64,000 nucleotides of DNA, taken from assembly GCA_963678705.1 (NCBI GenBank), contig OY783210.1, positions 14,695,331-14,759,330 of the forward strand, read 5' to 3'. Source of the stretch: Panorpa germanica. Its lineage: Eukaryota; Arthropoda; Insecta; Mecoptera; Panorpidae. The number at the start of each line of letters is the position of its first letter. The first letter of the stretch is position 1. The notes beneath the pieces were generated by a model, which was not told the origin of the DNA, did no database searches, and was given only the letters and a program-made list of their open reading frames with translations. A program made the position numbers and the translations under genes. This document shows, one piece after another, positions 7,986 through 58,945 of this stretch.

Positions 7986-10900
7986 ATGACATCACCTTCC
8001 CTGTCTAACGAAAGCACACCACTTCTTCATCAAGCTAAAGAAGAAATTCACTCAAACGGCTTAACTCAAGAAGTCAATAACACAAAACATAAATCTAACG
8101 TAAAAAACAAAGAAGGCAAAGAAAAGAAATCGGCTAAGATGTCATCCTCGTTGCCATCAAGTTTCATCTTTGGATACAGCCTTGGACACGTCTTCAATGA
8201 CTTTTGTTCATCGATATGGTTTTCCTACATGTTGATATTCTTCGCGAATATTATGGAGCTTGGATCAGCTGCTGCTGGAGTTTTGATGCTCGTAGGACAA
8301 ATTGCTGATGCTCTAGCAACAGCATTAGCTGGGTGGATAATCGACAAGAGATGGAGATCAAAAGCATCCAATCATTTAATAGGTATTTATTCTAATAACA
8401 CAATATATTTTACATTGAACATTGAAATCTGTATCATAATTTTTCAGGTTCCATCCTCGTCTGGTTTTCATTCCCAGTTATGTTTTTGCCATATCCAGGA
8501 TATCCAAACAAAACCAATTCAACAGATATCTTTGCAATTTTATGGTATAGTGTCTTCATAATCGCTTTCCAAGTAGGTTGGGCTTTTGTCCAAATATCTC
8601 ATTTGTCAATGATACCAAAATTTGGTAAAAATGAAGAAGAGAGACAAGACTTAACAATTTTCAGGTAGATATACGATGGAGTTATTTCTAATACAAGTAC
8701 AGATCACAAGTTGCTAAGTAATTTTCATGAATTTTTTTCTCAGATTCTTGATGCAGATATTCTCTGGTGTCGTTGCTTACATAATCGTATGGTGTGTGTT
8801 TCATACGGGGAACACAGATCGAATGACTCCTAATCTCACTCCTGATGATCGACAACTGTTTATAGTACGTAAAACATCGCACTCCATTCTATGTAGTGTA
8901 AATTTGTCACAGATTTCATCCGTGGATTTATTGTATCATACGTGGAAGATAAGGGGAGCGGAAGGAAACGTTTAGCAACAAAAGATATAGAAATATATGG
9001 CAGATAACAAGAAACTGATATTGTGACAGAAATTAGAAGAAAATGCCGGATTAGTCGTATGGTAGAAGTAGCAAATGCTACTGGGCTTCGCGTTTCTCGA
9101 GGTCTCAACCATAGAACATAAAATGGACAATAGGAAGAAATGGCAAAAAGTATATAAAAGAGAATCCTTCGGAGAGAAATTGTACACGCACCTATAAATG
9201 CATTTTGATGACATTATTTGATGTAATTGATTTGTAGCGGATGTGCGTACACCTTCTTTCCCACTATACTTCCCCTTCAAGTTTGATACGATAAATCTAA
9301 TACATCTCATGCGATTCGTACAGATTTGTGGCTGCTTAACTTTAGATGCATTTGTCTTGATGATTTACCATCAGAAAAACAAACCAGTTTACAAATTTAT
9401 TGATTATTAATAAAAACAATTTGTTGCAGATAATAGCGGCAACTTTATGTGTATTGGGAGCTCTCTGTACTTGGGCATTTCAACATATAGTTATCGCATA
9501 TTCCAAAATTAAAAGAACAGTTCCTCGAATAACTGCTAAAGTAGCAGTTGATGAAGAACTCGGCGAGGAACCTAGAACACATAGTGCAACACTTTATCAA
9601 GTCGCCATAGTGTAAGTAAGACAATAAGATCGTATATGATCGTTTATATGATCGTAGCAACACTTCTGGATTTATAATCTCCTTTACGTTCTATTTAATC
9701 TTATTTACAATCAAAATTAAGTTAATTTTTAAAATATCTTTCTCTGCTTAGTCGCTCTTCTCTTTTTTCTTCCATGATCTTCCTTCCTCCTTCTCTTGTG
9801 ATATTTTCTCTAAGGCATGATCCATTTTTCACCTTCTCCCGACACCTACTATTCATGTGCTCCAATTTTTTCTCATCATTCCTACATGTTTTCTCGTCCT
9901 CTTGTCCCCAATAATGGCTTCCTCTTTCTTGTAATTTCTTTACTTTCCGTTACTGCTAAGAGTGTTAACCAGCATATTATAGTTTTACACTAGTTTTGCT
10001 CTCTTTCGACAATGAGAAGAATACAAAAACTCCGAAAGAACTATGATTAATTTATTACAATTCCAATTCTTAGTTTTTCAGTGATCTACTAGCTATCTTC
10101 TTAAATCATTCGAAACTGACCTTCCTTTTCCTTAATTTTTTCCTCGGTTTTCTCTAGCATTAAGCCGGTAAATGCGAGATATTATCAAAGACTTTTATGT
10201 TTCCTACGCAGATGGGTTGTTGCCAAAGTATACAGTGTTTTAAATGCCGTTTACGTGCCGCTGTGGATAGACGAGCGTGAAAAAGTAGCGAGAGGAATAG
10301 CAGTTGATAAGGTGGAATCGATTCCAAGTGATAAAATCACAGTCATTGCTGTTAAAGGTAGCGGAGGTGTAGAAGACATCGCTATGGTTCCACTATTGAT
10401 ATCCATAGCATCAGTATTTGGTGCAGCACTTGTGTTGAAATATCAGAAAAAACTGAAAAATTTGGTAAATATTTAATTTGATTGATATATTAGTGTATTT
10501 AAAAATAAAAAAGTAATAACTTTTTCATATTTCAGCGATTATACATGTTGGGAATTATTATATGTTCTCTCAGTGCCATCTATGTTTTCTTTCTACAACC
10601 AACAGACTCAGCGAATCATCTTTATGGAATAGCTGTTTTGATTGGTAATGACCCTAATACTATAACACTCAGCTATACTTTTCTCCGGGTTCGATTCCCG
10701 GAGCAATGATAAACAATGATAACAATTAATGCGAAATATAACCTAGCTGTTGACATCGCAGTAATTTAATAAAGAAAGATATCAAACGATTAATATAGAC
10801 AACAAATATGATGAATAATTAAAGCCTCATTCCCACTCACTGTTTTGATATTTAATTTACTGTTTTTATTTAATATTGTAATCTAGATATTGCATGTTTT

Positions 10901-13121
10901 CGTTTAAGCATTCCTTTTCACATTTGTAATATAAAATTTATATGTGTATGTGAAATAATTAAAATTGCTTTTTTTAATAACAATTAGTAATAGAAATTGT
11001 TTTCACTTCCATATTTTTCAAAATCTGACATTAAACTTCTTTTAAAAGTAAATCCTACTGCATTTTGATAGATTGTCACATCTTGGAGGTTATAATATAA
11101 TATAGTTTCTCTAAATTTAATATTTTTAATTTAAAACATTAGACTTTGTAAGGTTCTAAAAAAGCTAAGAAAACTTAAATTAAATTAAAAATGGTACTGT
11201 GAATGACTACGCGTATTGCCATATGCTAAACAATTTAAATTAAATACAAAATAAAATTAAAGCAGTGAGTGGGAATGATACTTAAAAGTGTGATTTTCAT
11301 AAACCTTTGTTTGGATAATCTCAAGACTTAGTAAAAGTCAAGATATCCAAGGTCAAGGGTCACAAAAATCAGTCTTTTGCAAATGTATCGGTCTCAATGT
11401 GATTAGAACTTACAATGAAACTTGTACAACATAAAATTCTTTATAAATTTGGACGTCACAATTTGATGCTTAACGACTGACTTCTGTGTCTTCGGATTCG
11501 ATCCCAGACCAGAATTATATCTTCTTGGGATTGTTTTTTATTGAATTAAATGGGTTATGTACGTAACATAAAATCAATATCGAATATCTTAATATATATA
11601 AATTACGTGTCACGTTGTTTGTCCGTGTTTGTCGCCGATGGACTCCTAAACTACTTAACCGATTTTAATCAAATTTGTACACCGTGTGCAGTTTGATTCG
11701 ACTTGAAAGATAGGATAGCTTACATCTCAATTTATGATTGCAATATTATCTTATTGCAAATTATTTGTCTATTAATTATCTGTTAGCTCCAAACGATTGT
11801 AAAAGATGGCGACATCTGTTGACTAGATTGAGTAAATATTCAATAGATGGCGCTATGTAATGTAATATGACAAAAACGTTAGTCACAGCAACGCGTGGCC
11901 GGGACAGCTAGTAATATAATAAAGTCAAATTTTGTTTAAATGAGAAACTTTATTTGTCATTTACATATTTATCATCTTGATTTACTTAGACATACTAATT
12001 AGCATATGTTATTAATAAAAGTGGTAAAAACTAAAACAAATGTATTCTTCTTCAACAGGGACTGGAAGTTCGATGTCTATAGTGACGAGTGGATTCATGG
12101 CCGCAGAAATTGCCAGTCGCTTCAGTCGTGGATTCACTTACGCGTTTGTAACATTTGCAGATAAAATAATTGTAGGCGTTCTAGTGGTAATTTCAGAATA
12201 TGTGTAAGTTTATATCAATATTATGCTTTGTTTCAAATAAACATAATTATTTATTAATATATAGTTTATTAATAAAAAGACATATCGGTGTAAGAGCGAT
12301 CTCACGATAGACTCACTTGTGTTAAGACAAGTTTTCTTAAAAATATAGAAACAACCTTATGAACACACTAAACACGGTTAACATAATTTAATTTAACACA
12401 TTTAATAATAATTACTACCTTATTTTAATATATATTATTAACATATATTCAATATAATTATTTTTATTTCGTTATATCTCACAAGCTGAAATTTACATTT
12501 AAGGTTAAAAGTTTTAAACATTTCAGCAAAGAAAAAAAATCATACGGATATTCTCTCTCTTTTCAACATCATACACTTAAGTGGAGATAAAATTGTTGTC
12601 TCTTTTACATTTCAAAATATTTATTTTAATATGTAGAATATCATAGAAAGAAAGAAAGAAACAAGATATATCTGTCTCTGTTACACTTTAATGGTTTATT
12701 TACAACTTCATTCAATACTGTTACGGTAGTGAGGACAGGTGAAGTGATTTACAATTTGTAGTTCATATCACTGACATTTTCTTAAACGAGTGAAATCAAA
12801 TTGAAATGTTTCATGATAAAAGAATCCTAAGGCATCTTCAATATGACTCCAAAATGTTTACCGTGGTGTTTTTAACATTGTTAAATAACCTTAAATACTC
12901 ATAACAGTTTTCAGCGAATACATTGACATTGACCTCTTTAACGGTTATGAGTATATGTTTTAGTTAATTGTTTTTATTTCTCTCTTTCCAGGAAATGCAC
13001 AAACTGGGAGCTCTGCCCTTACTATTACCAACACCTGTTGATCACGATCTCCGTGGGAGCAACATTTGTCGGCCTAGCAACATCTTTAAGTATAAGTTGC
13101 ACAACTCGTCGTCTCACTTAG
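7986..13121 (+). CDS. MFSD12-like transporter, gene 1 (canonical type)
   Basis: Eight coding exons: 7986-8382, 8448-8664, 8744-8864, 9430-9611, 10212-10464, 10536-10644, 12059-12203, 12992-13121; 517 aa. All introns are GT-AG and the frame is continuous. I chose the ATG at 7986; an apparent splice acceptor at 7944 implies an upstream noncoding exon. A 12-helix major facilitator protein is expected, by family in lysosome-related organelles. Seen: an acidic dileucine-like sorting motif ESTPLL (residues 9-14), TM1 with GHVFND from about 68, GQIAD at 104-108 followed by a DKR loop, QISHLSMIP in exon 2, WIDERE at 324-329, FVTFADK at 456-462, and a Cys pair at 477 and 483. MFSD12 relatives include the silkworm red egg (ommochrome) gene and the mammalian melanosomal cysteine importer. 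The substrate here is not determined. A polyadenylation signal lies at 13133. Introns 4, 6 and 7 hold a LINE relic, a Helitron and AT-rich DNA. Confidence 0.9.
9735..10150 (-). repeat. Degenerate LINE-A fragment in gene 1 intron 4
   Basis: C/T-rich on the + strand. Read on the minus strand it keeps a broken version of the zinc-knuckle neighbourhood (a Cys, then a LEH-like triplet) of the LINE seen more clearly at 39150-40075. No open frame remains. It is antisense to the host gene. Confidence 0.5.
10678..10706 (+). repeat. tRNA T-arm-like relic in gene 1 intron 6
   Basis: The stretch CTCCGGGTTCGATTCCCGGAG forms a perfect T-stem and a seven-base T-loop with the TTCGATT consensus. No D-arm or anticodon arm can be built upstream, so this is a tRNA fragment or SINE remnant and not a working tRNA gene. 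Confidence 0.5.
11465..11545 (+). repeat. tRNA-derived SINE, copy 2
   Basis: Carries GACTTCTGTGTCTTCGGATTCGATCCCAGACC with the box-B-like GGATTCGATCC, then AGAATTATATCTTCTTGGG. It aligns with copies at 1172-1267 and 53725-53820. It lies in intron 6 of gene 1, about 40 bp before a Helitron. Confidence 0.6.
11587..11911 (+). mobile_element. Nonautonomous Helitron, family 1, copy 1
   Basis: Begins with TCTTAATATATATAAATT and ends with GGCCGGGACAGCTAG. It sits between a host A and a host T, the hallmark insertion site of Helitrons, with TC at the 5' end and CTAG at the 3' end. Length is 325 bp with no coding capacity. An inverted copy lies at 45644-45978. It lies within intron 6 of gene 1. Confidence 0.85.
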
Positions 13122-13267
13122 GATAATTAGTAAATAAACAATAAATAAATAATGTAATTGTAAATTTTACTTGTAGAGACAAATTTTGATAAACTCTTTA
13201 CAGATTGTAACAATAAAACCAATTTCGTTTTTATTTCATAAATCGTTTGGTCAAAAAAATTCTTAAC

Positions 13268-13617
13268 ATTATGTATCTTATCACACAGTTTTTCGAACAA
13301 ATCTATGTTGCGCTAAAATTATTTATTATTGTAGAATAAAGGTTATAAAATGATTTACAGAATTCAACAAACAATGGCGGTATAAATTCTTTCTTTAAAA
13401 TTGTATTTTCTTAACCATTGCTTTGTTTAAAAAGTAAACAATTTCGGTGTCCTTAACAAAGCGTACAACAAGAAGTTGGCTCACAGTGTCGTTGAGATTT
13501 CAACGTTTCGTGTCGCTTAGTATTTTGTTAAAATACTGAAATTTGAATATCTGTTGTGGAAGTAAATTCGTTAGAATCAGTTGATTGGAATTAGTATACA
13601 GGTAATAGAAAACACAT
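13268..13617 (+). promoter_or_regulatory. Shared promoter and noncoding first exon of gene 2 (block A)
   Basis: This block matches 25505-25860 and 38050-38425 over more than 300 bp. It contains GGTATAAATTC (TATA-like, 13380), a TTGGCTCACAGTGTCG element near 13477, and ends at a splice donor, ACAG/GTAATAG, with the exon ending at 13601. Homology fades within about 20 bp after the donor. A matching acceptor lies at 14503, just before the coding exon of gene 2. The transcription start is not determined. The block begins only about 150 bp after the stop codon of gene 1. Confidence 0.7.
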
Positions 13618-14184: not shown

Positions 14185-14595
14185 CCTTATTAAATTATAG
14201 TAATCTTAAAATATAAAGGCGATTTGATAACGTCTTTTATTACGTCATAAAATTAAAAATATTTGAGCAATCACAGAAAGTATAAAATGAAATACTAAGG
14301 AAGCCAGGGAGGGGAGTGGGGCTTACAGGATAAGAATACTATACTGCTACCAAATAAGTTTATGCTTATGTAATCAATTAAACCTAATACCGATATTACC
14401 CAATAGATATTGCTGTGGTAAATTCAAAAATATTATATTCGAACAATTACAAAAAGTCTGTTCTTCAGGTTAACATGAAATAAATTATTTTATTTTATTT
14501 TAGTTTCATAAACTGTCTTTGCATGCGTGGATGGGCATCACGTCTTCTCACTAATTAAAGCTAATTAAAGAAGAAGTTAATTTAATCGCAGAAAA

Positions 14596-17500
14596 ATGGC
14601 AGAAGGTGGAGAAAGTATAGAAATGTCATCATTGCGTAGAGTAGAACTAAGAGATGAACGACAGGAAGACAACGTGCAAATTAATATGCCTGCACTACCT
14701 ACAGTACGGCGGCGCACGATATTCGGGAATATATTTAGACCTGCTTATAGCATAATAGAAGATGACGGTACAATCGACATATTGGACTGGCATAGAGCAC
14801 GACTGGATTTACGAGTAGAAGGGTACATGCAAACTAATATTGGTGCAATACCATATTATACAATCAAAGATGCAGGTCAAGGGGGTGTATCAAGGGGAGA
14901 AAATATACGAAGATTTGGAAGGTATGGAGTACTCCAGATCAGAACACCTAGCGAGGGAGATGACAGGGTAATGCCACCACCGTATCAAGCGCAGAACATA
15001 GAACCCCGTCCAAGTACGTCATCCTATCAGGAGCCTCCTATTATCCAAATACAAGAAGGGGGAAATGAAGCCGTAATAGACGAGAATCTACCACCAGCAG
15101 TTGTTCTCTTAGTGCCAGAACAACCATTACATTACGTGTTAGCATACAACATGGGGCTCTTTTTTAGAAACGTTTCTTTAACGATTTGGGAGTCATACAT
15201 GATGGTATTTCTTACGCTGGTGATTCAAACAACTAAACTGAATGCTGCACTGTTTATGATAGCAGGATTATTTGTAAATATCTTTGCAACAAATATTGTA
15301 CGATATTGGAAGACATCAGCACTTAAAAAACATTGGATTGGTAAGTATCCTTAAATGAATAAAAAATTAATAACCTACTTTACTCTAATATAATTAAATA
15401 TTTCGTCTATATTGTAAAAATGTTGAAAAAATGTTATATACATATATGACTGATTACTGTATTGACTAGTTTGCTGTTCATTCGTTTGGTCATTTCGTCA
15501 TCGAACCGTGCATTTTAGGCAGCCAACAATGGGCTTGTGTCCTCATTTTTTAGTGATCGATTTTTCAATTGTTGATTGAAATTGATGTTAATAAATGTGT
15601 ATTGGCGTGTCTATTTTGTGAAATGCATTTTAACGTCAGTTATTTGTTGAGTAGGTCAGTGCTGTGGTAATGTTTTGTAGCTGCTGGTAGTCAAATATTC
15701 AAGTCAAGTCAAAGAATAATAAGTTTTTATTTTATTTAACCCTGCTAGGGCAGACATAATATTGTAATTTGAGTGTTCCTTGAAATAGCTGTAAATAATA
15801 TTTGATATTTTGATATATAAATACATATAGCAGAGATTTATGAGCTGTAAGGTTGGTAACCTTACACAAGGATTGTGATGTCACATGCACTTGGAATATG
15901 TACAACGTTGAATCCCTTTAATAATTAAAGAGACAAAATGACTTTTTTAATTGTTAATATCTTTTAACATATTAGGTTATTAAAAAATAATTGAACATAT
16001 GAGGTTGTAGTAACCCGCTTTATCAATATATAGTACACTTTTATAGAAATTAAGACATGGGACACAAGCCCATTCTGGTTGTTTGTATTTGCAAACTATT
16101 TCTTTAGCTTAGCTACCATTTACCTGGGGCAGCGAAGAGTCTGCCATCTCTGTAATCTATTCAAATAGTCATGCACAGTTTTTAGCTCGTTCTTCGTAAA
16201 TTATGGTGCAGAAATCCGGTAAGCATACAAGTTGGCTTTAATTTGCGTTGACTTATTGTCTTTCAAATGCAACAATTTCATTACAGCTCGATATTCGATT
16301 TTCCTTATCTTTATAGAAACACTAACATCGACTGACACAAATGACAAGTTATAATTCAGTGTATGCGCTTTTATATTAAAAAAAAATTGACAAGTAACAC
16401 CATTTTCATGTTAAAACTGAAAAGTTTTCAAGCAGCATATTTACTACTCTACTCGTATATTTTCAATATCAAAATCAAACCATTAAACAACTTTAATTTT
16501 TCAGGTGTCTTTCTTGCCGTGCTGTCATTTATACCAATGTTCACGCCATATCCAGAATATTACAAAAATGATTACACACTTATGTGGTATGGGTCATGCA
16601 TGGTGGTCTTTCAATTTGGCTGTGCGTTTATGGAATTATCTCATTTATTGGAGACTCCATTTCTTGCCGGTAGTCAATTCCTAACATTTCACAGGTTTGA
16701 AACGAACACAACACCGTGACACCTTCATTTTTAAAGCAATTTTGTGATTTAGAATAATTTATTACATTAATCGCAAAAATTACTTAAAAGCAAAGATTCC
16801 ACAGTGGTATATGAGGTAGACAAGCCAGTACATTGAAAAACTATCAAGAGTTTCATAAATGTCTTTTCCAGATTATTCTCCGAGTGTTTGTCTAAAGCCT
16901 CCGCGTATCTGTTCGTGTTAATCGCATTTGTTATCATAGATATATTTTATCCTAAGATAAGTAGCTCAAGCAATATAACTGAAGACAAATATGCTCTTAT
17001 GGTAAGAAAAAGATCTTTCCCACTCGGATTAATAAAACTATTTAAATCCCAAAGCAAAATTGAACCGATTATTATTATTTTATATTTAATGTTTTTGCCA
17101 TTTGGCACTACATTCTTGTGATACTTTCCCAGTATCTGTTTCCTTGTTCCTCATTTCCCAATCTAAACCTTGCTGTCCTTCTTATGCTTTTATGTCTTTT
17201 TCTATTAAGTACTGAGGTATATTACTTTCCCAAATCTTTTTATATCTTGTGTTGTAATTGCTCTTCTCGATTTTTTCCATTCTTTCCTGTTGTTATATCT
17301 CCTTATCCCTTCTCCTTAGCTCCTCTTCCACACTTGTGCCTCCTTCTCTTCTCCTCTCTGCCTCCTCGATCGCCATTCCATTCCTTTCAAAATACTCCTT
17401 TCTTCTTTATACTTTCCTCCCTTATTTTCTTTAAAATTTTGATTTCAGCACTGCTTATTTTCTCCTCATATTTTATTGCTCTTTTACCTGCTTTAATTCT

Positions 17501-20500
17501 TATCTTGTCCCTTTTTAGCTCCTCCATGATCATGTATCCTGGCGTGCACCTGTCCAGCCCTAGTATCCATTTAATGCATCTCTCCTGTATTCTTTCCAAC
17601 TTCTCTTGCTTCTGCCACCCCCATATCTCTGTTCCAAACATCATCATACTGGTTATCAATCTGTCGAACATCCATAGTCTCTTTTGTATGTCCCCCCCAA
17701 ATACCTTTTCTCATATTCCCCACTCCCGTCGCATTGCTCAGTAATATTAATGTTCTACTTATTTACTTTAGGTAGGTGCCGTCTTCATAACGGTACTGGG
17801 TTTTATATCATTTCTGATATTTCGAATGATGATTCACAACTTTACAGAGTGGCAAAAAGAAGACGTGAACTTAATACCCAATAACATCTTTTGTGCAAGA
17901 CGCTTCGATACAACCGCTCGTCATCGTTATTCGCATGCGTTAGTTTCATTTATGTAAGTTTTATTTTTGTTCATGATTTTTAGTGCCTTTTAATCAGAAA
18001 GCTTTTTATCGGTTTGAATAATGAATATTATTTTAGTTTTATACTTTATATCCTGACAAAAAGAATATATTTGTTACAAGAAGCAGTCATTGTGTAGAGT
18101 TGCCGAAATCTTCTGGGAATCATTCAGAACGCGCTAAAGTTAATACTGATTTTTGGCTTATCAAAATCTTAGAATGAATAACATTTAAACAGTATAGTTT
18201 CTTTTTTTTTAATATTTATTATTTTTAGTGCATCAACTTTAAATAGTTATTATTATTTATTTATTAATTGTGTGTGCCTTTCGGCTTTACAATCTACCGT
18301 ATTCTAATTACATTTCATTCCTATCTTAACAATTCAACCTTAAAACTAAACTTTAATAATTTTATTTACAACTAATTATTTACTTAAAAAAACTAATCTT
18401 TATTTATTAAAAACTAAAAAACTATAATTTCTTTAATAACTTCAATATTCATTTTTCCTTATACGAGTTCATTAATTCTTATTTCAACAACAATTGCACT
18501 ATGATATGATATAGGAATCGCCGCCACTGCGATGTCTCTTTATTGCATTTCCCTCTTCTTCGACCTTCTTCCGTTGAAGTACTATTTTCCATATGTCTTC
18601 CGATTGTTTACTTTCTTTAATAATATCTATTTTCTTTTATAACCAAACCCAGAAAATATAACTTTGATAAAAATCTAGTCACGGTATAAAAATCTTGTCA
18701 CGATAAAAAAAATCTCGTAATTTGAAAATGAAATTAAAATTTGAAATGAAATTACGAATTATTTTATTGGATTCAAATTTGACACACTAAAAAGACGTCG
18801 TTTTGCAACGGAGGTAAACTAGTAATTTTATATTTTTCTTATTTCCTGATTACAGTATTAATTTTTAGGCTGGTCAAGGTTATGATATTTCTATTACCAT
18901 CATTTAAAAAAATGTATCGATATCGGAGTATGATGGACGAACTATGTAACGCGTTGCTTATTAATTCTGAATTTGACAGGAGAGTGTAAAACTATAGATT
19001 CCAATCACATCACGAATTGTATTCTATCTACTTTATTATCATCTAATATATAACTTGATATCTCGTAGAGTTATTTTCTGTTACTGGTTTAGTTTACATC
19101 AATTTAATTTTTTATTATTCTGTGCAGGTATGTATTCGTCAGGATATTGCTTTTACTTGTGACCATTTATTTTCCGATGTCGATTAGCGAGCGCGAAGTA
19201 CAAGCCAGTCTTATGGACTTTGAAAAACAGTTTAACAATCCAGAAGTTCCAGTAGGCCCACTGGGACAACCACCTTTGCGACTCAGTAACACCCTCGGTA
19301 TAAGAACTGCTGACTTACGAAGCACTACCACTACCACTGCCATGTCGCCACTCGTTACCGCCTATACCAGTCGCTTTGTGTACGATATATTCATCATTCC
19401 TTTGTTAATGTGGCTTTCTGCAACAGTTGGTGGTATCCTATATAACAACATTATAAGTTCGATAACAAGAATGGTAAATACTTTGTCTAAGTTACGAGTA
19501 CAGTATAACACCCCTATAAACCGACTTTCTGCAAAAATAATTCATATACCATGATTGTTTTTGTTCAAAGCGTTTTTCCATACAAAAATACACTGCTAAA
19601 AATATTAACACAACTTTTATAAGAAATATTTTAACTGTGCACAACATCCCCTCCCCCCCTCCCCCTGAAATCGTTTCGTCACCAATGAAATCCTCCCTAG
19701 TAAGTTGGGAAATATGCGAGTTGAGTCTACTGAAAATATTGCAAGTCGCAAGGAAACCATTGCATTGTGAGAGACCCTTATATTTAGCAGAATTATTCAC
19801 TACAATGCTATTTCATTTTACGCGTAATACATTAAAAACGTTATATGGGGCTCCACTGTACACTGTACTCTACTTTAGGCGCCTTTTTCTTAGACTAGAG
19901 CCACACTGCAATTTTTATGCGACTTTTAAATCAGCAGAGTGCGTGTTCATTTATATGATTCGATTAATTCCATAATTATGGATTTATTTCCGCGCTATTG
20001 TTTTTCGCAGTGCAGCTTTAGACTAAGAAGAAGGTGTCTAAAGCATTTTTCGATAAATTTTCTTTATAGTGTATACAATAATGTGTAAATAGTCCTTTGG
20101 GGAGGGGGTGGGGGGTTTGGGGCTACGGTAAGGTCAAAACGATAAAAAAAAGTATATTTTCGATAATGTTTTTTGACGACACAGTTAATATATAATTATT
20201 TCTATAAATACTACATGATAAAATGACATTTGAAGAATACTTCGTGAAGGTTTTATTAATAAATATTAAGAAATGAGGTATTGACAGCGAATCTCCGCAG
20301 ACGTCACAAAAAAAGTTTCATTGCGATGTCCCTCATAACTCATCAATGGATTATTTCAAATCAAAAAACCAAAATGATTTTATTACTTGATAAGTTTCTG
20401 CAGGTAACGCTGTTGAGTTTTTTTTAGTTTATTAATTTTTTACAGCACTTAAAAGTCAAAATACCGATTTTTCATGCAAAAAATGAGAAACTTTGTTATT

Positions 20501-23500
20501 TTAAAATACGTTAAAATTAGAAATAATAATAAAAATTAAAAAATAAAATAAAACTCTACAGCGTTACCTCGGCATTTATGTAAAGAAAGGGTGTGCAAGT
20601 GTGTTTTGAGCTAGAGAGGGCACCGACTCTGAAAACACTGAGTGTGAGAACAACGCGTTTAAAAGTTTCAAAGAAATACGAAACCAGATAATAAAACAAA
20701 TTTAATGTGTTGTACATTAATATAAATAAATATAAAAAAGGGTGAAATCTTAAAGCACCATCGCCCCCCCCCCCCTCACCCCTTTAACTTACCGAAAAAG
20801 CTTGAAACCACAAACATGTTTATATAAATGGTTTGCTTGGTTTTTGTTGTTTATTTCAACGTTGAATAAGTAGGACAAAGCTCATTACGAATAAAATTAA
20901 TTTTTTTAATTTGTTTTAGCAATTATTTTCTTTAGCACTCTTCCCGGGATTGGCCAGCGGCATTTATATGTATTTTATTCAACCTGCGAGCTCCAGTGTT
21001 CATTTATATCTCATATCTATTTTATTTGGTAATCAAAACTGTGTAACTGCACAATGAATATGCAAGCAACATAATTATATTACAGCATTTATTGTAAAAT
21101 ACGAGTAGATACACGTTCTATTAGTTATAACCAGTTTATCAAGAAAGCATCCATCACAGTAAACAATTTGGTAAAGTGCCCTATTTGGTGAAGTTCGAGT
21201 CACTCGTAACGAGTCATTCTATTCTAACGCTTTACAAGTTCTCTACCTGTCACAGATTTTATGTTAGTTGTTAGAATTTTTTCATAATAATATTCTTTCT
21301 TTTTCCAACATCATTCATTAAGTAGCAGTTGTTTCTTTCATATTTTTCTTAGTTCACTTTCATTCCAAAGTAAGAGAGAAACGAGATGCGGTTAGAAAAG
21401 TAAAATATATTTTTCACCGTTACACTTGTATACTTGTATAGTATTTTGTTCAGTACAGTATGTTTAAAGTATATGCTATCCTTTTTCAACAAATATTTCT
21501 TTAATGGTAATAGGCACACGCTGTCTCCCTCAATCCCCGAATATAATGTATTTAAACGAAGATGAATAATATTCATTAAAAAATCACGATCCGTACTAAA
21601 GATTACATCTATTTATTTCTTCATTTAAATATTTATATTTTGCAGACTCTAAAAGGTAGAATTCAATTAAGTTTTATACCCCTGCTAGTGTCAAGTTTAT
21701 AACTCCGGTCATAAATCATAAACCGACTCCGCTTTTAATTCAGCAGTGAACCGTCGTTGCGATCTCTGTAGCTCATAAAAAGGGTCTTTCCTATGAACGA
21801 CTGAATAGAAACCGAACACGTTCCAGACAAAAAACTCATGATATGTAATAGAAATTAAGTAGAATTTACTCCAAAATGTTTACTGGGATATTTCCTCACA
21901 TACATGTAAAATTTTACTTAAAAAATTATAGTAATAATACTTAATCTGAAAAGGTTCCAATTTTAATTAAAATCAGTTAATTGTTTTATTCTAAAGATAC
22001 CTTATAATCACTTAATCATTAAAAATGTCAGACGTCAAGATGGGGGCGACAATTTCTAATCTTGCCCTGAAAACATTTCTATTTTGTAATACAATAATGT
22101 AATAGATCAAAAGTTACTTGCATATACATATTATTTTGTTGTAATGTTTTTGTCAGTATGTAAAAATTACATATCATTGTGATTAATTGTATACAATCTA
22201 CCCATTCTCACTCCTTACCCTATTTCTACTCTACTCTTCCTTCTCTTTCCCCGCTCCTTTTTTCTATCTTCGTCATCCACTACCTCCCTTTAATAACTGC
22301 ACAATCTTCTTTTCACTTTTACTCTTTTCTCACATTAATTCTTTAGCGTTTCTATATCTCTCCAGCACACCTTGCTCATCCTTTCCTCTCTATTTTCCCA
22401 GCATCTGATGCCTTAAATATATATATACATATATATACCATCCTGCCAGAAGGGGCTCTTAGTATAAGTCAGTATATCGTTCAGATTGTGACTGCGGTGG
22501 TATGCGAGGAAATCCGTTGACATTGCACTTCCCATGCCAGCGGTGAACAGTGTTCGATTCGCCACCATAATTTTGTAAAATATAAATGATCTTTCCCAGG
22601 GCTTTCATGTTCGGTGTGTTTATTTACAAGCGCAGATTTGGTCTATATAACCATGGAAATATGCCATGACGATTTAGAACCTTCGTCAGTTACAGATATT
22701 CCTTTGAGATACGGTATTCAAACCATTGTATCCTGCATTATACTACTATTAATATGGTAAGCTTCTAGAAAAATTATGATTTTATTTTAATTAAGTGTGA
22801 TGTCATATGATTTCACGGGACTTTGCGTACACTCTTAAAAACCTTTATAAACTTTAGAATATTTCTAAAGCATATTTTGAATATTAATTTGACAGCATAT
22901 TGACAGTATATTAATTTTCATAACAAATACATGCAGTGCATTTTAAGGAGATCGTAGTAGCACAGTGTAAATAATTTCGGTTATTACTTTTTACATCTAT
23001 ATGAAAAATAATTTTAAAATTTATAGATAATATTACAATGTTAATTTAAAAAAAAATAGTTACTTAAAATGTATAAACATTGATTTGACTAAAAAACCGC
23101 TAGAGTATATAACGTGAAAACTTAGACGTAATTCTAATCTTTTCGAATATTCGCGATTACTCATGCGGCGATTAACTGCGCAAGCGACGTTTCCAAATCT
23201 TACATGGTGTTTGGAACAGGAGAAGTAACGGATGATTGTGATGATATTTTTTATAAAACAAATCTTTTAATCGAAAGCTTGATGTTTTCTGTTTAAAACT
23301 TTATTTGGAGGCAGTTTTTGTCGAGGTCAAAAATTGTGCTATAAAGTTGAAATTTTATATATAGGCTAACTTTACTACCTAATTTACGAATCGAAAAAAA
23401 AATCCCAAATTTTGAAAAAAAGTTGGTCAAAAATAATGAATAAATTGAAAATATTTTTTATTTTGTTGAGAAAATATATTTTGTTGGTTCAAATCATACA

Positions 23501-23739: not shown

Positions 23740-23874
23740 AATGGCATACTACCAATAAAGGAATATTTAAATAAAATTTGTATTAATAAGTTATATTCAT
23801 GTAGAAGGATTAAAAAAAAAAACATTTTTTTGTTTATCGATAAAACAAATAATAAATAAACTTAATTCTGCTGT

Positions 23875-24190
23875 TTCTCTCTTCCTGCTACACTCCCTCC
23901 TGTTTCTACTCTACCTTTCCTTCCCTTTCCTTACTCCTTCTCTCTACCTCCGCCATCCACCGCTTTCCTTCACAGCCTCCCTTTAATAACTTCTTTCTAC
24001 TTTTTCTCTTTTCTCACATGAAGACTTAATGTGCTCCAGTGTTTCTATCTCTCTCCAGCACACCTTGCACATTATTTCCTCTCTATTTTCCCAGTACCAG
24101 CTGCCTTTTTCATCGTTTCCCAATTTAAATCTTACGAATGTTCTTATGTTTCTCGTCTCTTTTTCTCGTATGTATTCCGGTATCTCTTTA
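23875..24190 (-). repeat. LINE-A fragment between genes 2 and 3
   Basis: The minus strand keeps the zinc-knuckle area of LINE-A (the antisense of the CACCTTGCACATT stretch), with frames interrupted. It follows the gene 2 polyadenylation region by about 100 bp. Confidence 0.6.
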
Positions 24191-25490: not shown

Positions 25491-25504
25491 CTTAAAAAAT
25501 TACG

Positions 25505-46100: not shown

Positions 46101-47200
46101 AAATAGTACTTAAGCAATTTTATTTCTTCGATATGTAAAGGAGTCAAAGCCGGATTTATATATAAATTTTCGAGGTGAGAAAACCTCAATTCGGTCGCTG
46201 TCTTAAAAATAAAGTTGTAATCAATTATTTGTATTTATCTTAGAAACTATAACTTCCACAAATATTTTGTAAAGAGCTTAATTGTAGATAATATCATTAT
46301 CTACAACTTTTATTAATAGCTTTTTGTTGTAACTTTTATAATAAAAAAGTTATAAGCAAAAAGAAATCTCAAATTTAGTTGTGTATTGAATAAATTTTTC
46401 TTTCAAAATATTCTCAAAATATTTTCAAAAATTAAAATAATTTTAGATAAAAACTTTCAATGCGATCCCCTCAAACTTTCATTTCATTTTGAATTGGCTC
46501 TTTTAGCATCAAACCACTAAAATATTTACGTAAAAAATTTTCTCAATGTTAAATACAAATAACTATGTTTATCAAATAATATTTCCTTTTTTGACAGGAG
46601 TTGGAAATGCAGCGGCTCAAATAACCAGTGGATCCAAAGTTGCTCAAATTATTCACCAATATCGTGGACAAAAGACACATACGATGGTGTGTTTCCTGGA
46701 CAAAATACTTATAATCATTCCGATATTACTCGTTGGATATTAGTAAGTATTAAACACAATTACAATTTTAATAGCTGACCTGACAGACCTTCTCGTGTCC
46801 AAATTTCAATTAATTCTTTCACAATATAAGTAATAATAAAGTAATAAAAAAAATAACAAAAAATAGAGAGAGAGTGCTGGGAAGGGGTGAAGAAACTAGG
46901 GAAGGGAGGGTTGTTACCATTATTGGGTTAGTTACGGAGAGGCGCAAGTTACTCACTTGCCACAAACGCTTCACTCCCTCGTTACGGCACTGATATAGTG
47001 CAATAAAAAGCGTGACACTGAATTTTGTCCTTAACCTTAAAACTAATATAATATTATTTCCTTTCAGCAAATGCGAAGTCCATAGTGAATGCCATTACTA
47101 TTATCATCAAGCTTTTAATCCAATGCTTTTTTCAATACCGCTTGTGAGTCTATGTGGTGCTCTCGTTCTATATATAGCGTATCTCTGTGGCATTAAATAA
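40196..47200 (+). CDS. MFSD12-like transporter, gene 4 (intermediate, short N-tail)
   Basis: Eight coding exons: 40196-40466, 40891-41113, 42605-42725, 43230-43408, 44121-44379, 45148-45256, 46598-46742, 47068-47200; 479 aa, the shortest of the five. The frame is continuous, introns are GT-AG and phases are as in the others. The N-terminus is about 25 basic residues before TM1 (YSVGHFFKD at 26). It keeps GQIA but ends in Asn (GQIAN, 66-70; Asn70). The loop that follows is serine/lysine-rich without the DR/DK pair. QLTHIVAVP, PLWIDERE (281-288), FLDK (420-423) and the Cys pair at 438 and 444 are retained. It is thus a link between the canonical pair and genes 2 and 3. Expected to be a multi-pass membrane transporter; substrate unknown. 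A polyadenylation signal lies at 47303. Confidence 0.88.
40667..40870 (-). mobile_element. LINE-B-like C-terminal fragment in gene 4 intron 1
   Basis: The minus-strand frame reads LKSDDRCQCVELEILDHIIF followed by EC, matching the zinc-knuckle region of LINE-B at 24785-25114 (ESDDRCRCGERETLMHILKEC). It ends about 20 nt before exon 2 of gene 4. Confidence 0.65.
41161..41891 (-). mobile_element. Helitron family 2 with a nested MITE-3
   Basis: On the minus strand it starts TCCTATATTTTAATGTTCC after A and ends GACGGGGGTAAATTCTAG before T. A complete MITE-3 occupies about 41658-41870 and interrupts the Helitron subterminal sequence seen intact at 34500. It lies in gene 4 intron 2. Confidence 0.8.
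41658..41870 (+). repeat. MITE-3 foldback element
   Basis: Left end: AATCACGATAGATCGGCGGTG; right end: the inverse of GTTACGAGAGTTCGGCGGTG. Arms of about 60 bp pair imperfectly through the TAAGAGCGGTATAAA and TTTATACCTC regions. Noncoding. Confidence 0.8.
43471..43650 (+). repeat. Mariner-like MITE fragment in gene 4 intron 4
   Basis: Starts ACTCAATAAGTTCGTAGGATG, as in the complete element at 35482-35760, and shares the internal AATTTCATGACATAC-type segment. The right end is missing. Confidence 0.65.
44021..44096 (+). repeat. Short tandem repeat, unit of about 13 bp
   Basis: About six units of a GATATATTGTTAC-type motif with small variations. It ends about 25 nt before the exon 5 acceptor of gene 4. 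Expected to be length-polymorphic. Confidence 0.9.
44500..44890 (-). repeat. LINE-A fragment in gene 4 intron 5
   Basis: The minus strand carries decayed zinc-knuckle and RFRLGN-region sequence of LINE-A (seen in reverse as the CAGCACACC and CTTTCTCTTCGTTTCCCAGT stretches). A MITE-1-like fragment follows at about 44990-45090. Confidence 0.6.
45644..45978 (-). mobile_element. Nonautonomous Helitron, family 1, copy 2
   Basis: Inverted copy of 11587-11911. Minus-strand start TCTTAATATATATAAATT follows A, and the end GGCCGGGACAGCTAG precedes T. It differs by a local 26-bp duplication around 45713-45765 (AATATTTACTCAATCTAGTC twice). It lies in gene 4 intron 6. Confidence 0.85.
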
Positions 47201-48149: not shown

Positions 48150-48335
48150 GGGATTTTTCAATTGTTGATTGAAATTGATGTTGATAAGTAAATGTATATT
48201 GGCATTTTTATTTTAATAAATATCTAAATGTTGACGGAGATAAAACAATTGAAAATTCAAATTGTAGTTTTAGCGGTACTGATGTCGGCCATATTTATGA
48301 CGTAACATGTCTGTACCATTAAGAGTAGGTCAGTT
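48150..48335 (-). repeat. MITE-1 fragment
   Basis: Carries GGGATTTTTCAATTGTTGAT, TTGACGGAGATA and GGCCATATTTATGACG, the inverse of the right half of 4474-5106. It is cut off at the left edge of a MITE-2 insertion at 48336. Confidence 0.7.
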
Positions 48336-49185
48336 CCCAGTAAACATTTTAGAGTATATTCTACTTAATTTCTATTACATATCATGAATTTTTTGTCTGG
48401 AACGTGTTCGTTTTCTATTCAGTCATTCATAGGAAAGGCTTTTTTTATGAGCTACAGACATTGCAACGACGGTTCACTGCTGAATTAAAAGCGGAGTCGG
48501 TTTATGATTTATGACCGGAGTTATAAACTTGATACTAGCAGGGGTATAAAACTTAATGGAATTCTACTTTTTAGGGTCTGCAAAATATAAATATTTAAAT
48601 GAAGAAATAAATAGATGTAATCTTTAGTACGGATCGTGATTCTTTTAATGAATATTATTCATCTTCAACAATACTCGTTATATTAGTTTTTTACATTGTT
48701 TTGATGATTCAAAAATCCACGATCGGCAGGTCTGCGTTAGGTTTAAAACCTCTGTCTTACCATCGCTAGATGCTAACTTCGTTTATATACATTATATTCG
48801 GGGATTGAGGGAGATAGCGTCTGTCTATTACCATTAAAGAAATATTTGTTGAAAAAGGATAGCATATACTTTAAACTACTGTACTGAACGAATTATTATA
48901 CAAGTATACAAGTGTAACGGTGAAAAATATATTTTACTTGTCTAACCGCATCTCGTTTCTCTCTCACTTTGGAATAAATGAGATGAAAGTGAACTTAAAA
49001 AAAATATATACATGTGGGAAAGAAACAGAAATACTTAATGAATGATGTTGGAAAAAGAAGGAATACTAGAAAGAATAACTAACACAAAATCTGTGACAGG
49101 TAGAGAACTTGTAAAGCGTTAGAATAGAATTGTACGAGTGACTCGAACTTCACCAAATAGGGCAATTCACCAAATTGTTTACTGG
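48336..49185 (-). repeat. MITE-2 long copy, inverted
   Basis: Begins CCCAGTAAACATTTTAGAG and ends CCAAATTGTTTACTGG. The interior is the inverse of 28942-29807, including the extra segment at about 48670-48790. It abuts a MITE-1 fragment on its left, which suggests insertion into or beside that element. Confidence 0.8.
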
Positions 49186-50569: not shown

Positions 50570-51552
50570 ATTAAATTCTTTTCTGGCATTTAAATGTTTC
50601 TGGCCTTCTTTTCTTCCTTCCTCCTGCTTCCCTCCATCAACCAACCTCTTCCTTCTGTCGTCCATACTAACAGTTCTCTAAAGTCAACCTATTTTCTATC
50701 TGCTCCATAATTCTCTCTCTTTTCCTATTTCTTGTTCCTACCTCTTTCTACCTTCGCCATCCACTTCCTTCTTTCCCTGTCTCTGTTCTATTGTATTTCT
50801 CGCATACAAATTAGGTTTAAGTATTTATTGTTATTATTTATTATTTATATTAATGTTTTTGCCATTTGGCACTACATTCCTCTGCCTTAACTCATTTATT
50901 TACATATCATTGTGCTTAATTCAATTTTGATCCTTATTATATCTAAACATTCTCACTCCTTCCAAACGAAAAAAAAAATTCTTATAAAAATAAAAACAAA
51001 ACTGCTACTGCTATTGCTTCGCTCCTCCTGCTACTCTCCCTCCTGTTTCTACGCTGCCATTCCTTTTCTTTCCTCGTTCCTTTTCTCTATACCCGTCATC
51101 CACCTCTTCTCTTCATTGCCTCCCTTTAATAACTGCCCAATATTCTTTTCGCTTATTACCTTTTTCTCACATGAAAACTTAATGTGCTCTAATGTTTCTA
51201 TCTCCATTCCACACACCCTGCACATCCTTTCCTCGCTATTTGCCAAGTATCTGTTTCCTTTCTCCTCGTTTCCCAATCTAAATCTGGCAATCCTTCTCAT
51301 GTTTTTTGTGTCTTTTTCTATTAAGTATTCTAGTATCTCTCTCTCCCAAAATTGGCTGTGAAGAGTGTCTGAAAGAGATGGCATAGTAATACGATAAGGA
51401 CGACATAGTGTACCAGAGCAATGATGCTTGATAATGGCTGCTGTGCCTTTTAGCATCACGCCACGGATATAAGAAAACATATTTTTTGAAAGCAATATCA
51501 GCATAACGGAAGTAAACATCTTACACACAATATTAGAAATTCCCAAGGTCAA
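50570..51552 (-). mobile_element. LINE-A fragment fused to unidentified coding-like sequence
   Basis: A 167-codon minus-strand frame (51049-51552) joins two parts. Its C-terminal half is LINE-A: WEREILEYLIEKDTKNM, RFRLGNEEKGN and an intact zinc knuckle, CRVCGMEIETLEHIKFSC. Its first 68 codons (about 51350-51552) do not match LINE-A copies elsewhere and include SYIRGVMLKGTAAI and CSGTLCRPYRI. Left of 51049 more decayed LINE-A sequence extends to about 50570. Confidence 0.65.
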
Positions 51553-54230: not shown

Positions 54231-57200
54231 ATGTCCAATTCAAAAGCAAATGAAAGAACACATTTACTAGCACAAAATTATGAAGAAATCGATTCCTATA
54301 TACCTGAAGTCACCACAAGTAAAACTATCGACCGTATACAAGGAGAACCAAAACACGAACCTAAATTATCTAGACTCTTTAAACTAGGATTCAGTTTAGG
54401 ACACGTCAACAATGACTTATGTGCTTCCTTATGGTTTTCTTATTTACTTCTATTCCTCACAAGTATCAGAGGTCTTTCTAGCGGTGTTGCTGGAGGATTA
54501 TTGTTATTAGGACAAATTGCGGATGCTGTAGCCACACCAATTGTAGGGTATTTGACGGACAGAATAGGAACTAAAAAACAATGGTATATTTTTGGTAAGT
54601 AGTTTTAGTAAACCAAAATATTTTACGTTTTAAAAAAATCGTTTTTGATCATTACGAGGATGGGGTCACTACGTTTCCCGTATTGAGATATAGGTTACTT
54701 TTGATTTGGCATCCATTTGTATTAAACGTTTTAGTGTTTTTTGACATAATGGGAAAAGAGCAATATCGATCCGTTTATTGCAGCTCTCGGTCGTAATTCG
54801 TTCGTCCCTTTCATAATCATCTTTTCCATTTCCCTTTCTTCATATAATTAAATCAACTTTTCAAAAAAGGACTTGTTCTCTTTCAGCATGAACTGATTCA
54901 AATAATATTTTGTTTCCTAATTGCAGGTTCACTTACGGTTATGATTACATTCCCCTTAATCTTCTCCGGATGCCCCGGATGTAACCGCAATGATGACTCT
55001 CTTTACGTAGCGGATCTAGCGTTCTATGCAATTGTTACTGCAGCTGTTCAAATAGCCTGGGCCGTTGTACAAATATCACATTTGGCAATGATACCACAGT
55101 ATGGAAAAACTCAAAACGATCGGGCAGATTTGACCGCTATTAGGTAATTCATTTTATTTACCAAATGAACACGAAATTTGTGTCTCCAAAGTCATATAAA
55201 AACATAAAATATGGTATAGTCCAAATCACGATAGTTTGGCGGTGACTTATACTTAAAAGAGGTTATAAGAGCGGTATAACTCTATAATACGATAATGAAT
55301 TTATCTTATTTGTTTCTAAATACATTATAGAAAAATAAGTGAGTCAGTGCTTTTTAGTTATATTGGCAGTATATACCTCACAACTTGTAGTAAGTATGAG
55401 TCGCCGCCGAACTCTCGTAATTTGAATTATATCACGTTTTAATTTATTTATGTTTCCATCATTTTAGATACGCCGGAACGGTCGTTTCTAGTGTAACGGT
55501 TTTCATCGTAACCTGGGCAGTACTACATAGTAATAATCGAGAATCAGGCACTTTGGGGAAAGAAGATAAAGCTACATTCAGAGTAAGTGTAATTAAAAAA
55601 TATAGTAGCGTTATCTTTTCATTTACTGATTAAGTTTGACCCTCATCTTACGCCTTACATTGTTTTTAAAATTACAAAAGTAGCATCACTGTAATTCATA
55701 AGCTAATGGTCGCAATGTCATGATATTGTGACACATATCTTTTGAAGGTCGATACAATCTAAAAATCATATAGATTTGTCAATAGTGGATAAAAGATTTT
55801 TAATGTGTTTAGTTATTATTACTTATTATTTATTATTAATTGTGTGTGCCTTTCGGCTTTACAATCTACCGTATTCTATTTCTTAATACATTTCATTCCT
55901 ATCTTAACAATTCAACCTTAAAACTCAACTTTATTAATTTTCTTTAAAATTAATTATTTACTTAAAAGTAAACTTTATTTATTTATTAAAACTAAAAAAA
56001 ATATTCTAGTCTTTTACTACTTCCAAACAGTGCTTTCTGTTTCTTCTTCTCTTGACCCTCTCTCCTCATATTCCCCATGCAAACCAGATCACGAGATTAT
56101 TTATTGTCATGTTTTTCATTCCTTTTTTCTATTTCCGTCATCCACCTCTTTCCTTCACTGCCTCCCTTTAATAGCTGCACAATATTCTTCTCTCTCATTA
56201 CTTTTTCCTGACAAGCAAACTTAATGTGCTCCAGTGTTTCAATCTCCGTTCCGCACACTCTACACATTCTTTCCTCGCTATTTGCCCAGTATATGTTTCC
56301 TTTCTCCTCGTTTCCCAATCTAAACCTTGCAAATCCTTCTCATGTTTTTTTGTGTCTTTTTCTCTTAAGTACTGTGGTATCTCTGTCTTCCAAATCCTTT
56401 TATATCTTGTTTTGTAATTACTCTTCTCGATTTTTACCATTCTTTCCTGTTGCTGTACCTCCTTGTCCCCTCTACTCTTCTACACTTGCGCCTCCTTCTC
56501 TTCTTCTCTCTGCCTCCTCGATCGCCATTCCATTCAATGTCTTTAGCATTTATTCAATGATTAACACTAAGATATTTTATGTTGATATTTTTCAGAATAT
56601 CTCCATTATTTTAACTGCAATTGGAGCTATAGCTACTGTTGTATTTCACTTAACTTTGACAGTGCATGAAAAAAGACAACGATGTAGCGTTTTATCGAAC
56701 AGAAGCATAGAACCTCTGGAAACTGGACTAGCGAAGAAAACAAATGAAGAAAATAATGAAATAGATGAAGAAAAACGAAATGAAGAACACGTCTATAAAT
56801 CAAATACCAACAGCCTCCTACGATGTCCACTGCTATACCAAGTTACTCTATTGTAAGTATCATTTAAGCTATCTTTGGAACTTATTACATTCGACCAACT
56901 TCAATACACCATACTGAAAAGAAAATAGCCAATGTCGCAAACAGTATGTTCCAGTCTGAGAGACTCTTATTCTACAGTAATAAATAAATAGTTAATTCTT
57001 TATAAACTCCAGTTTATTATTTAAATTCATTACGTACTTAAAGTACCATTCCTAGCTACTGTTTTAATTTTATACATCAAAATGTACCAATCCTATTCTG
57101 AAAACATATAATTTAGAATCTATTTAAAACTAAAATGGAATAGAATTTAATTTTTATTTCATTAATGTTTAATTCGTTGGATTTACAGATATGTGTCAGC

Positions 57201-58945
57201 ACGTTTGTTCCAAACTTTAGCACTGGTTTATATGCCACTGTGGCTGGATGAAAGAGAAGCTGTTTCTAAATTAAGATTCATCAACCATGCCAATGACACT
57301 TCTTATGTTGAGCTGATGTCTACACCAGCAACTACCGGTGTTGAAGATATTGCTCTTGTTCCACTTGTGTCTTTTATAGCATCGTTCTTTGCGGCATTGT
57401 TTTTAAAATTGTCGAATAATGTATGCAGCTCACAGGTAATTTTCTTAATATGTATTATTTGATATAAAACATAAATTTAAATCATATAGAGTCTGCGTAC
57501 AAAGTTTGAGCTCAATAACTGATCAGTAAATAATTTAAAATTCGATTCGTATAACCACCACGATCGAGATTAATAAAAACTTTTAATTGTGTATTTATTT
57601 GTACAGTTAATACATTCATCATGTATATTTTAGATGGAATACTTCTTTGGCCTGGTTGCCAGCATATCCGCATGCATTTGGGTGTACGAGGTCACACCAG
57701 AATTTGTAAGAGCAAATCTCTATGGCATTGCTATTCTATTTGGTAAGAATCTTTATAATAATTTAACTGCTTAAACCAATTGTATTATTTTTTAATTAGT
57801 CGTTAGTATTAGCAATTAAAACATGTCCGCGCCATTTTTTCAATGATTCTTTCATTGTGTAAAATTTATTCATTTATTTAAGACAAACATTCAAAAGAGT
57901 ATTTTTTTCTACGTTTTAGATGAGTGTGCCAATTAGGATTTGTCCCTAATTTCTGGGGATAGGCGCTAATATTATTGCTTATCTATGACCTTATTTCTGA
58001 AACCTCAATTTTTCCATTATCAGTGACCCATTATCCCCGGAAGCCAAAACAAATATATGAGCGCCTTATTTTAATTTCAATGTTATCTTTTTTAGGAATA
58101 CCGTAGAATAAAAAAAATATTTCAAAACAAAATTTATCATTTACTTTATATTTAATTAGGATTTGGCGGTTCTGTGACGCAGATCAGCAGCCTCTGCTTG
58201 ACAGCAGAAATCGCAGGAGAAATTGTGAGCAGTGGAGGCTTCATTTACGCGGCCGTGACATTTGCTGATAAACTGATAACTGGTTTAGTAGTGATAGTTA
58301 TTGAAAATATGTAAGTTCATGTCGTCAAGTAATATGTCATCATTAATTTAAGGGGTTATTCTACTTTGTTTAATAAAAATAAGATGAATCATATCTTAAT
58401 TTCTATGAAACTGTAATATTAATTGATATTTACAATTAAACAATAGAAGATAGAAGAGAACCGTAGAATTAATTAACAATACATGATATTAACAATTAAA
58501 ATAAACAATTGTCCATTTCATTATTAAAGACTGGAGTTCCACGAACTTAAAGAAAATTGTTTAAGTATTATAGCCTATATAATTGGTATCGTTTGTTGCT
58601 CTTGGCTTACCAATCAAATTTAAAACACATCTTTTTGAAACTTCAACCTTTTTGAAAAATAAATCAAAAATTACTAAGTCTTGAAATAAATAATTACAAT
58701 GTTTGCGACTCTTATTTTCTATATAACTAGCGAATGAGATATTAAAATATATAATAATAAAGTATTATATCCATCTCATCTAGCGTCCACAAACTAATTT
58801 AACTAAAATTTCATTTTATTTCAGGAAATGTACTTCTCTAGACCAATGCCCAACCTACTATCAATCAGTGTTAGCTAACGTCTGCGGAGGATCTGCTATT
58901 TTAGGAGTAGTTACACTGATTACATTAAGATTTAAAAAATCATAA
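54231..58945 (+). CDS. MFSD12-like transporter, gene 5 (canonical type)
   Basis: Eight coding exons: 54231-54594, 54927-55143, 55468-55582, 56596-56852, 57189-57435, 57634-57742, 58160-58310, 58825-58945; 526 aa, continuous frame, all GT-AG. An acceptor at 54180 suggests a noncoding first exon, but the promoter block of genes 2-4 is absent. Seen: dileucine-like ERTHLL (8-13), GHVNNDLC in TM1, GQIAD (94-98) followed by YLTDRIG with the Asp-Arg pair (110-111), QISHLAMIPQ in exon 2, a charged cytosolic loop in exon 4 (many Glu/Lys/Asn), PLWLDERE (334-341), YAAVTFADK (466-474), and the Cys pair at 489 and 495. It has every family hallmark, including LTAEIAG and SGGFIYA in the last quarter, as in vertebrate MFSD12. 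It and gene 1 are the best candidates for the ancestral lysosomal/pigment-granule function. A polyadenylation signal lies at 58964. Confidence 0.92.
55200..55436 (+). repeat. MITE-3 in gene 5 intron 2
   Basis: Left arm AATCACGATAGTTTGGCGG, right arm the inverse of AATTACGAGAGTTCGGCGG. The arms pair inward over about 50 bp with mismatches. It ends about 30 bp before exon 3. Complete and uninterrupted, it serves as the reference copy. Confidence 0.8.
55640..55790 (-). repeat. Mariner-like MITE fragment in gene 5 intron 3
   Basis: Shares CATTGTTTTTAAAATTACAA and AAAATCATATAGATTTGTCAA with the elements at 35482 and 43471. Both terminal repeats are missing. Confidence 0.5.
55800..56540 (-). mobile_element. 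LINE-A 3' fragment in gene 5 intron 3
   Basis: On the minus strand it shows the 3' UTR (TGTGTGCCTTTCGGCTTTAC in reverse view), an ATT-rich tail at the left, and two overlapping frames (56097-56318 and 56198-56440) that together give the LINE-A C-terminus: WKTEIPQYL, GNEEKGN, and CRVCGTEIETLEHIKFAC intact. A frameshift separates them. It ends about 55 nt before exon 4, antisense to the host gene. Confidence 0.8.
58385..58500 (+). repeat. MITE-1 fragment in gene 5 intron 7
   Basis: Resembles the MITE-1 left region (ATGAATCATATCTTAATTTC, then GAAACTGTAATATTAATTGAT). It is heavily degraded. Confidence 0.4.

Follow-up and report, generated by a model that had tools for sequence, protein, structure and literature searches.

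A tandem array of five MFSD12-like genes in Panorpa germanica with a fast-evolving inner trio that shares an upstream module

The MFSD12 gene, linked to pigmentation and lysosomes, encodes a lysosomal and melanosomal cysteine importer whose coupling mechanism is poorly known. According to part of one report, the protein carries cysteine and needs an H+ gradient, and human MFSD12 reaches the cell surface upon change of Leu253/254 (PMC10246716). An AP3 dileucine cargo peptide from MFSD12 contains GEHTPLL, as given in an excerpt of a second study (PMC13178560). For MelB, like MFSD2A an MFS_2 (GPH-type) cation symporter, an extract of the published work describes a D55C mutant that loses Na+ and Li+ and keeps H+ coupling, and a D59C mutant that is a uniporter (PMC11259710). 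An extract of another paper ascribes the silkworm red egg (Bm-re) mutation to an MFS gene linked with ommin formation (PMC7413551). Within the open-licence literature of PubMed Central we found no paper joining MFSD12 with ommochrome, none joining MFSD12-like with insect and, among the matches listed, no title on an insect MFSD12 array, which is not proof of absence from print. We presume Bm-re to be kin to MFSD12. Here we describe five tandem plus-strand genes, g1 to g5, in a 64,000-nucleotide (nt) window of the Panorpa germanica genome (assembly GCA_963678705.1, contig OY783210.1, forward-strand positions 14,695,331 to 14,759,330; all positions below are those of the window). All five are MFSD12 relatives; g2, g3 and g4 form a fast-evolving trio that has lost a conserved acid of helix II and shares a module upstream of the coding sequence.

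Each of the five genes (5/5) could be rebuilt from the DNA with 8 coding exons in phases 1-2-0-2-0-1-2, an exon 6 of 109 nt and a single terminal stop, bearing out the array, phase structure and exon 6 length of the original prediction. Models for g1 and g5 were read directly off the sequence. The first, g1 (7986-13121, 517 residues), has exons at 7986-8382, 8448-8664, 8744-8864, 9430-9611, 10212-10464, 10536-10644, 12059-12203 and 12992-13121, and g5 (54231-58945, 526 residues) at 54231-54594, 54927-55143, 55468-55582, 56596-56852, 57189-57435, 57634-57742, 58160-58310 and 58825-58945. Models for the trio were assembled from stop-free AG-to-GT/GC stretches of the right phase scored against g1 and g5. 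The most diverged of the five, g2 (14596-23739, 663 residues), comprises 14596-15340, 16505-16694, 16872-17001, 17772-17953, 19128-19473, 20920-21028, 22600-22756 and 23607-23739. Exons of g3 (27932-36566, 589 residues with an acidic N-terminal tail) lie at 27932-28502, 30060-30258, 30910-31036, 31153-31331, 32203-32479, 33354-33462, 35160-35310 and 36410-36566, and those of g4 (40196-47200, 479 residues) at 40196-40466, 40891-41113, 42605-42725, 43230-43408, 44121-44379, 45148-45256, 46598-46742 and 47068-47200.

Seventeen of the 24 inner exons either have a similarity score of at least 33 or, in the case of exon 1, show an unambiguous open frame. The other seven (g2 exons 3, 4, 7 and 8; g3 exons 3 and 4; g4 exon 4) score at most 12 against g1 and g5 and owe their assignment to phase, exon order and an uninterrupted frame. 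At g3 exon 3 the GT donor was chosen over a longer version that ends at a GC donor and had the better score (22 versus 12); the candidate taken for g3 exon 4 ranked fourth, the higher-ranked ones falling inside exon 1. We found no in-frame stop in any model, against 32-47 per gene expected from base composition, and 22-48 stops occur in the alternative two frames once the coding exons are joined. Chance open frames were rejected as an account of the five genes. For g2-g4 the count is 0 stops in 1731 modelled codons versus ~117 expected by composition, a figure partly built in because the exon scan admitted stop-free stretches only; the intact frames claimed by the original prediction are thus recovered in all five genes, for the trio partly by construction. 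All 21 modelled introns of the trio are GT-AG, which the scan also partly imposed. AATAAA follows every stop by 11-102 nt and is not rare in DNA this AT-rich (GC 28-33% in 4-kb blocks). The observed-to-expected CpG ratio of the five genes, 0.80-0.95, does not separate inner from outer genes. A tblastn search of the window with the five proteins and six relatives matched the exons and gave weak hits in other places; among the matches listed (to ~55.1 kb) no further dead copy was evident.

To place the genes in the family, we built a profile from six canonical animal MFSD12-type proteins and scored 100 shuffled sequences as a control. Scores fell from 370 bits for g5 and 261 for g1 to 102 for g4, 72 for g3 and 47 for g2, with the best shuffle at 3.1. 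Since these scores far exceed the shuffles, all five genes are MFSD12 relatives, arranged on a steep gradient. Pfam at an E-value of 0.1 recognised MFS_2 (PF13347) in g1 (E 4e-24) and g5 (E 2.5e-20), MFS_1 alone in g4 and no family in g2 or g3. NCBIfam, to which g1 and g4 were sent, gave g1 only matches far under the cut-off and g4 no match. The outer genes are 27-36% identical to the six canonical proteins, which are 42-60% identical among themselves, and pairwise protein identity within g1-g5 is 21-38%. All five genes end helix 7 in W-[IL]-[DS]-E-R-E (S for W in g2) followed by a longer loop, unlike the canonical six, which have Y-L-x-x-x-L and a short loop. A protein search with g1 found six matches, all MFSD12-type, three of which we take to be from two beetles and one wasp.

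A mixture-model tree of 11 proteins (g1-g5 and the canonical six, used as the outgroup) placed the six canonical proteins on one side of a branch with support of 100/100, so that, against these six references, g1-g5 all fall outside the canonical clade. From the outgroup, g5 branches first, then g1, then the trio (100/99). Branch lengths from the node with g1 are 0.4 changes per column for g1 itself and ~3.5-4.8 for trio members. When a single trio member was retained, g2, g3 and g4 each stayed on the g1 side, with g5 joining the canonical six (99-100% bootstrap); when one was dropped, the remaining two still grouped together (96-100). A g1+g4 clade was rejected by the approximately unbiased (AU) test (p 0.0007), as was a sister pairing of g1 and g5 (p 0.001); the outer genes thus represent branches that split off one after the other, and the trio arose from the g1 side. 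A gap over the helix II-III loop, shared by the trio, and leader homology (described below) point to the same grouping.

The original prediction had described two conservative copies flanking a fast-evolving inner trio. The trio does form one clade on very long branches, and the loss of motifs attributed to it is borne out at 118 columns invariant in the six canonical proteins, of which g4 keeps 46, g3 39 and g2 38. By the same count g5 keeps 82 and g1 64; the outer genes retain the family motifs relative to the trio, not in absolute terms, and although more conservative they are not a sister pair. The outline of that interpretation was right, and we treat the lineage specificity and the new function it proposed as hypotheses; to it we add the order of branching, the lost coupling acid and the 5' module that the trio shares.

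We aligned the canonical profile to MelB, whose D59C entry in that output marks the site, and found that canonical Asp35, Asp71 and Thr75 align with MelB Asp19, Asp55 and Asp59. The predicted structure of one canonical relative (P0002; six-sequence alignment, mean predicted local distance difference test score 73.8) has MFSD2A, then MelB, as its nearest solved structures. Helix II differs from that of MelB: canonical MFSD12 has Thr at the Asp59 site, so that of the two acids of the MelB-type site the Asp55 equivalent alone is present in g1, g5 and the canonical proteins, and the trio has neither. Asp71 is Asn in g2, g3 and g4. The helix-I acid, Asp35, survives in g1, g4 and g5 and has been replaced by Asn in g2 and g3. 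Of the five genes, g2 alone lacks the helix XI pair Asp402-Lys403. Trp144 has become Cys in all three inner genes, and the helix II-III loop motif Y-G-x-R-K-x-W is absent from the trio and mostly altered in g1; Arg172 is kept in 5/5 genes. From these residues we infer that the trio would be unable to use the usual helix-II cation site.

The outer genes also resemble MFSD12 in carrying an [DE]xxxL[LI] dileucine signal, ESTPLL at residues 9-14 of g1 (TPLL type) and ERTHLL at residues 8-13 of g5 (HLL). These lie in the N-terminal tail, a difference from human MFSD12, whose surface routing, in the portion of the report cited above, follows change of Leu253/254. The N-terminal tails of g2-g4 have no such signal; elsewhere in the protein g2 has two, g4 one and g3 none. 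The motif is short, and we regard it as a lead for a lysosomal or pigment-granule location of g1 and g5. The N-terminal tail of g2 spans ~180 residues and holds, in exon 1, one PPPY (residues 127-130), a possible WW-domain ligase site.

Self-comparison of the window revealed a non-coding module in the spacer before each inner gene, at 13265-13615 (g2), 25496-25874 (g3) and 38091-38439 (g4), all three copies on the plus strand. TATA-like boxes stand at 13381, 25612 and 38177, and putative leader exons run to 13601, 25843 and 38408. The three modules have TATAAATTC in common and, near the 3' end, the splice-donor-like ACAG/GTAATAG, whose three plus-strand occurrences in the window are all in modules. 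A profile made from the three copies, which match it by construction, found no fourth above threshold in the window, and thus no module precedes g1 or g5 here. From TATA-like box to donor, g3 and g4 are identical at 223/234 ungapped positions (5 gapped), g2 and g3 at 179/218 and g2 and g4 at 180/218 (21 gapped each), 82-95% overall versus 45-46% for the coding DNA of the trio. More than 15 nt beyond the donor, identity drops to 24/38 (g3-g4), 17/32 (g2-g3) and 16/34 (g2-g4). We read the module as a putative promoter with its leader exon and leader splice junction, retained by all three genes. Divergence of the protein alongside conservation of the upstream module is, in our judgement, unusual for a transporter family.

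Putative leader parts of exon 1 precede the ATG of the trio at 14504-14595 (g2), 27849-27931 (g3) and 40103-40195 (g4), from acceptor-like sites 83-93 nt before the ATG chosen by eye (exon starts 14504, 27849 and 40103). Acceptor-like sites of the outer genes lie before 7945 (g1) and before 54181 (g5). All three trio leaders (3/3) carry a 17-nt block whose end lies 15 nt ahead of the ATG: ATTAAAGAAGAAGTTAA at 14564-14580, ATTAAATAAGAAATTAA at 27900-27916 and ATTAAAGAAGAAGTCAA at 40164-40180. Its pattern matches the window three times versus 0.05 expected, a count that is not independent, the pattern being drawn from the same three genes. Leader similarity exceeded all 500 shuffles for g2-g3 (33 versus a maximum of 32) and g2-g4 (36 versus 32).

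A second shared block lies in intron 5 of g2 (20129-20682) and g3 (32578-33156), both on the plus strand and at a nearly equal distance from exon 6. Its copies are identical at 466/542 ungapped bases (86%; 68 gapped columns), far above coding identity, and hold an inverted repeat; the block may be an old insertion. Between the gene copies, synonymous divergence (dS, NG86) is 1.15-2.32, near saturation, and nonsynonymous divergence (dN) 0.61-1.05; third positions of the trio are 40-45% identical. Because synonymous sites are far more diverged, the age of the genes cannot explain the 82-95% identity of the non-coding islands, and selection, gene conversion or later insertion is therefore needed.

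We favour, with a probability of roughly 55%, the reading that g1 and g5 encode conservative transporters of the lysosomal type and that the trio forms a fast-evolving offshoot, regulated together and without cation coupling of the MFSD12/MelB type. The five intact-looking genes would all descend from an MFSD12-like (MFS_2-type) transporter. With dileucine signals and coupling acids kept, g1 and g5 would be transporters with 12 helices that reside in lysosomes or related organelles, and their solute would be small, amino-acid-like and proton-coupled, as reported for MFSD12. The matching promoters would activate the trio jointly, within a restricted tissue, and the products would be uncoupled facilitators or non-transporting partners instead of proton-coupled transporters.

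Several observations weigh against this interpretation. Loss of Asp71 alone is no proof of lost coupling, because the MelB Asp55 mutant couples H+ and canonical MFSD12 is already without the Asp59 equivalent; moreover g4 retains Asp35, g3 and g4 the helix XI Asp-Lys pair, and all five genes Arg172. The trio branches are saturated and drew a long-branch warning from the program, so the tree may join members wrongly. It pairs g2 with g3 (91/91), yet in the upstream module g3 and g4 are the closest pair. With a stricter requirement for pyrimidines, g2, g4 and g5 have leader acceptors that pass and g1 and g3 do not, and the remaining eight leader pairs were equalled by 14-402 of 500 shuffles (14 for g2-g5, 34 for g3-g4). 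A search of 5.8 billion proteins with g3 residues 115-585 gave no match among the 7996 candidates scored (those with most shared words), nor did g1 residues 299-442 among 849 candidates scored. Since the search with g1 found six MFSD12-type proteins only and two of three protein searches found none, distant animal relatives are thinly sampled.

Plain subfunctionalisation, in which the trio is still coupled, its substrate has changed (to pigment precursors, for example) and the altered residues retune the pocket, seems to us rather unlikely. It would account for hydrophobic peaks over the whole core of the inner proteins (15 in g2, 11 in g3 and 13 in g4 by a crude window, versus 12 in g1 and 16 in g5), for their open frames and for the retained Arg172, Asp35 and Asp-Lys residues just listed. 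It fits less well with the loss of both helix-II acid and loop motif in 3/3 inner genes, and with g2, which additionally lacks Asp35 and the Asp-Lys pair. Relaxed constraint, with g2-g4 decaying toward pseudogenes, was judged less likely and appears very improbable: the very long branches, lost conserved residues and seven exons recognised mainly through phase and open frame are as decay would have it, but the stop-free codons and GT-AG introns, even allowing for what the scan imposed, and the 109-nt exon 6 in all five genes speak against it.

It is also doubtful that a mobile element or gene-conversion tract, instead of a selected promoter, accounts for the upstream module, in which case the high identity of the module would be silent on co-regulation. 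Repeats are abundant in the window, some of them in matching introns (intron 2 of g4 and g5, with inverted copies elsewhere), and the intron 5 block shared by g2 and g3 is likewise highly identical. The module is 95% identical between g3 and g4 versus 82% between g2 and g3 despite equally distant proteins, as conversion would give. Against such an origin, only three copies occur in the window, none is inverted and each lies upstream of an inner gene, an arrangement reached in 33 of 200,000 random placements before correction for 24 direct-repeat families. In addition, homology fades ~15-30 nt past the conserved splice-donor-like site, and the left ends are unequal.

Other repeats and neighbours fill the rest of the window. 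Fragments of what appears to be a single reverse-transcriptase-type element, of insect-like appearance and with minus-strand frames, occupy introns and spacers at 17110-17666, 39248-40079, 51006-51350, 55986-56535, 23847-24196 and 44511-44839. A second dispersed repeat, in direct and inverted copies, occurs in g2 intron 6, g3 intron 1 and spacers (21154-21904, 28941-29824, 48335-49185 and 1266-1567). The repeat in intron 2 of both g4 (41626-41869) and g5 (55186-55431), at 88%, has inverted copies in introns 2 and 6 of g3; matching intron position alone is therefore no proof of shared descent. A 146-nt tandem repeat lies at 2204-2530 (2.2 copies), and a U6 spliceosomal RNA at 118-223 (full-length Rfam match, 66 bits) was all that Rfam found in the window at curated thresholds. 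Flanking frames encode an F5/8 type C domain slightly under the Pfam cut-off (60366-60794, minus strand), a gamma-glutamyl cyclotransferase-like (GGACT) domain (61818-62183, plus strand) and a THAP domain (63515-63805, plus strand).

A bolder and distinctly unlikely reading is that the trio has been freed from transport. Its proteins would then diverge almost without limit while selection or conversion holds the promoter and leader module near constant, making them co-expressed pseudo-transporters derived from a lysosomal cysteine-type carrier. If true, such a trio could serve, for example, the germ line, a gland or a host-parasite conflict. For the family, natural copies without the helix-II acid but with open frames offer ready tests of which residues coupling requires.

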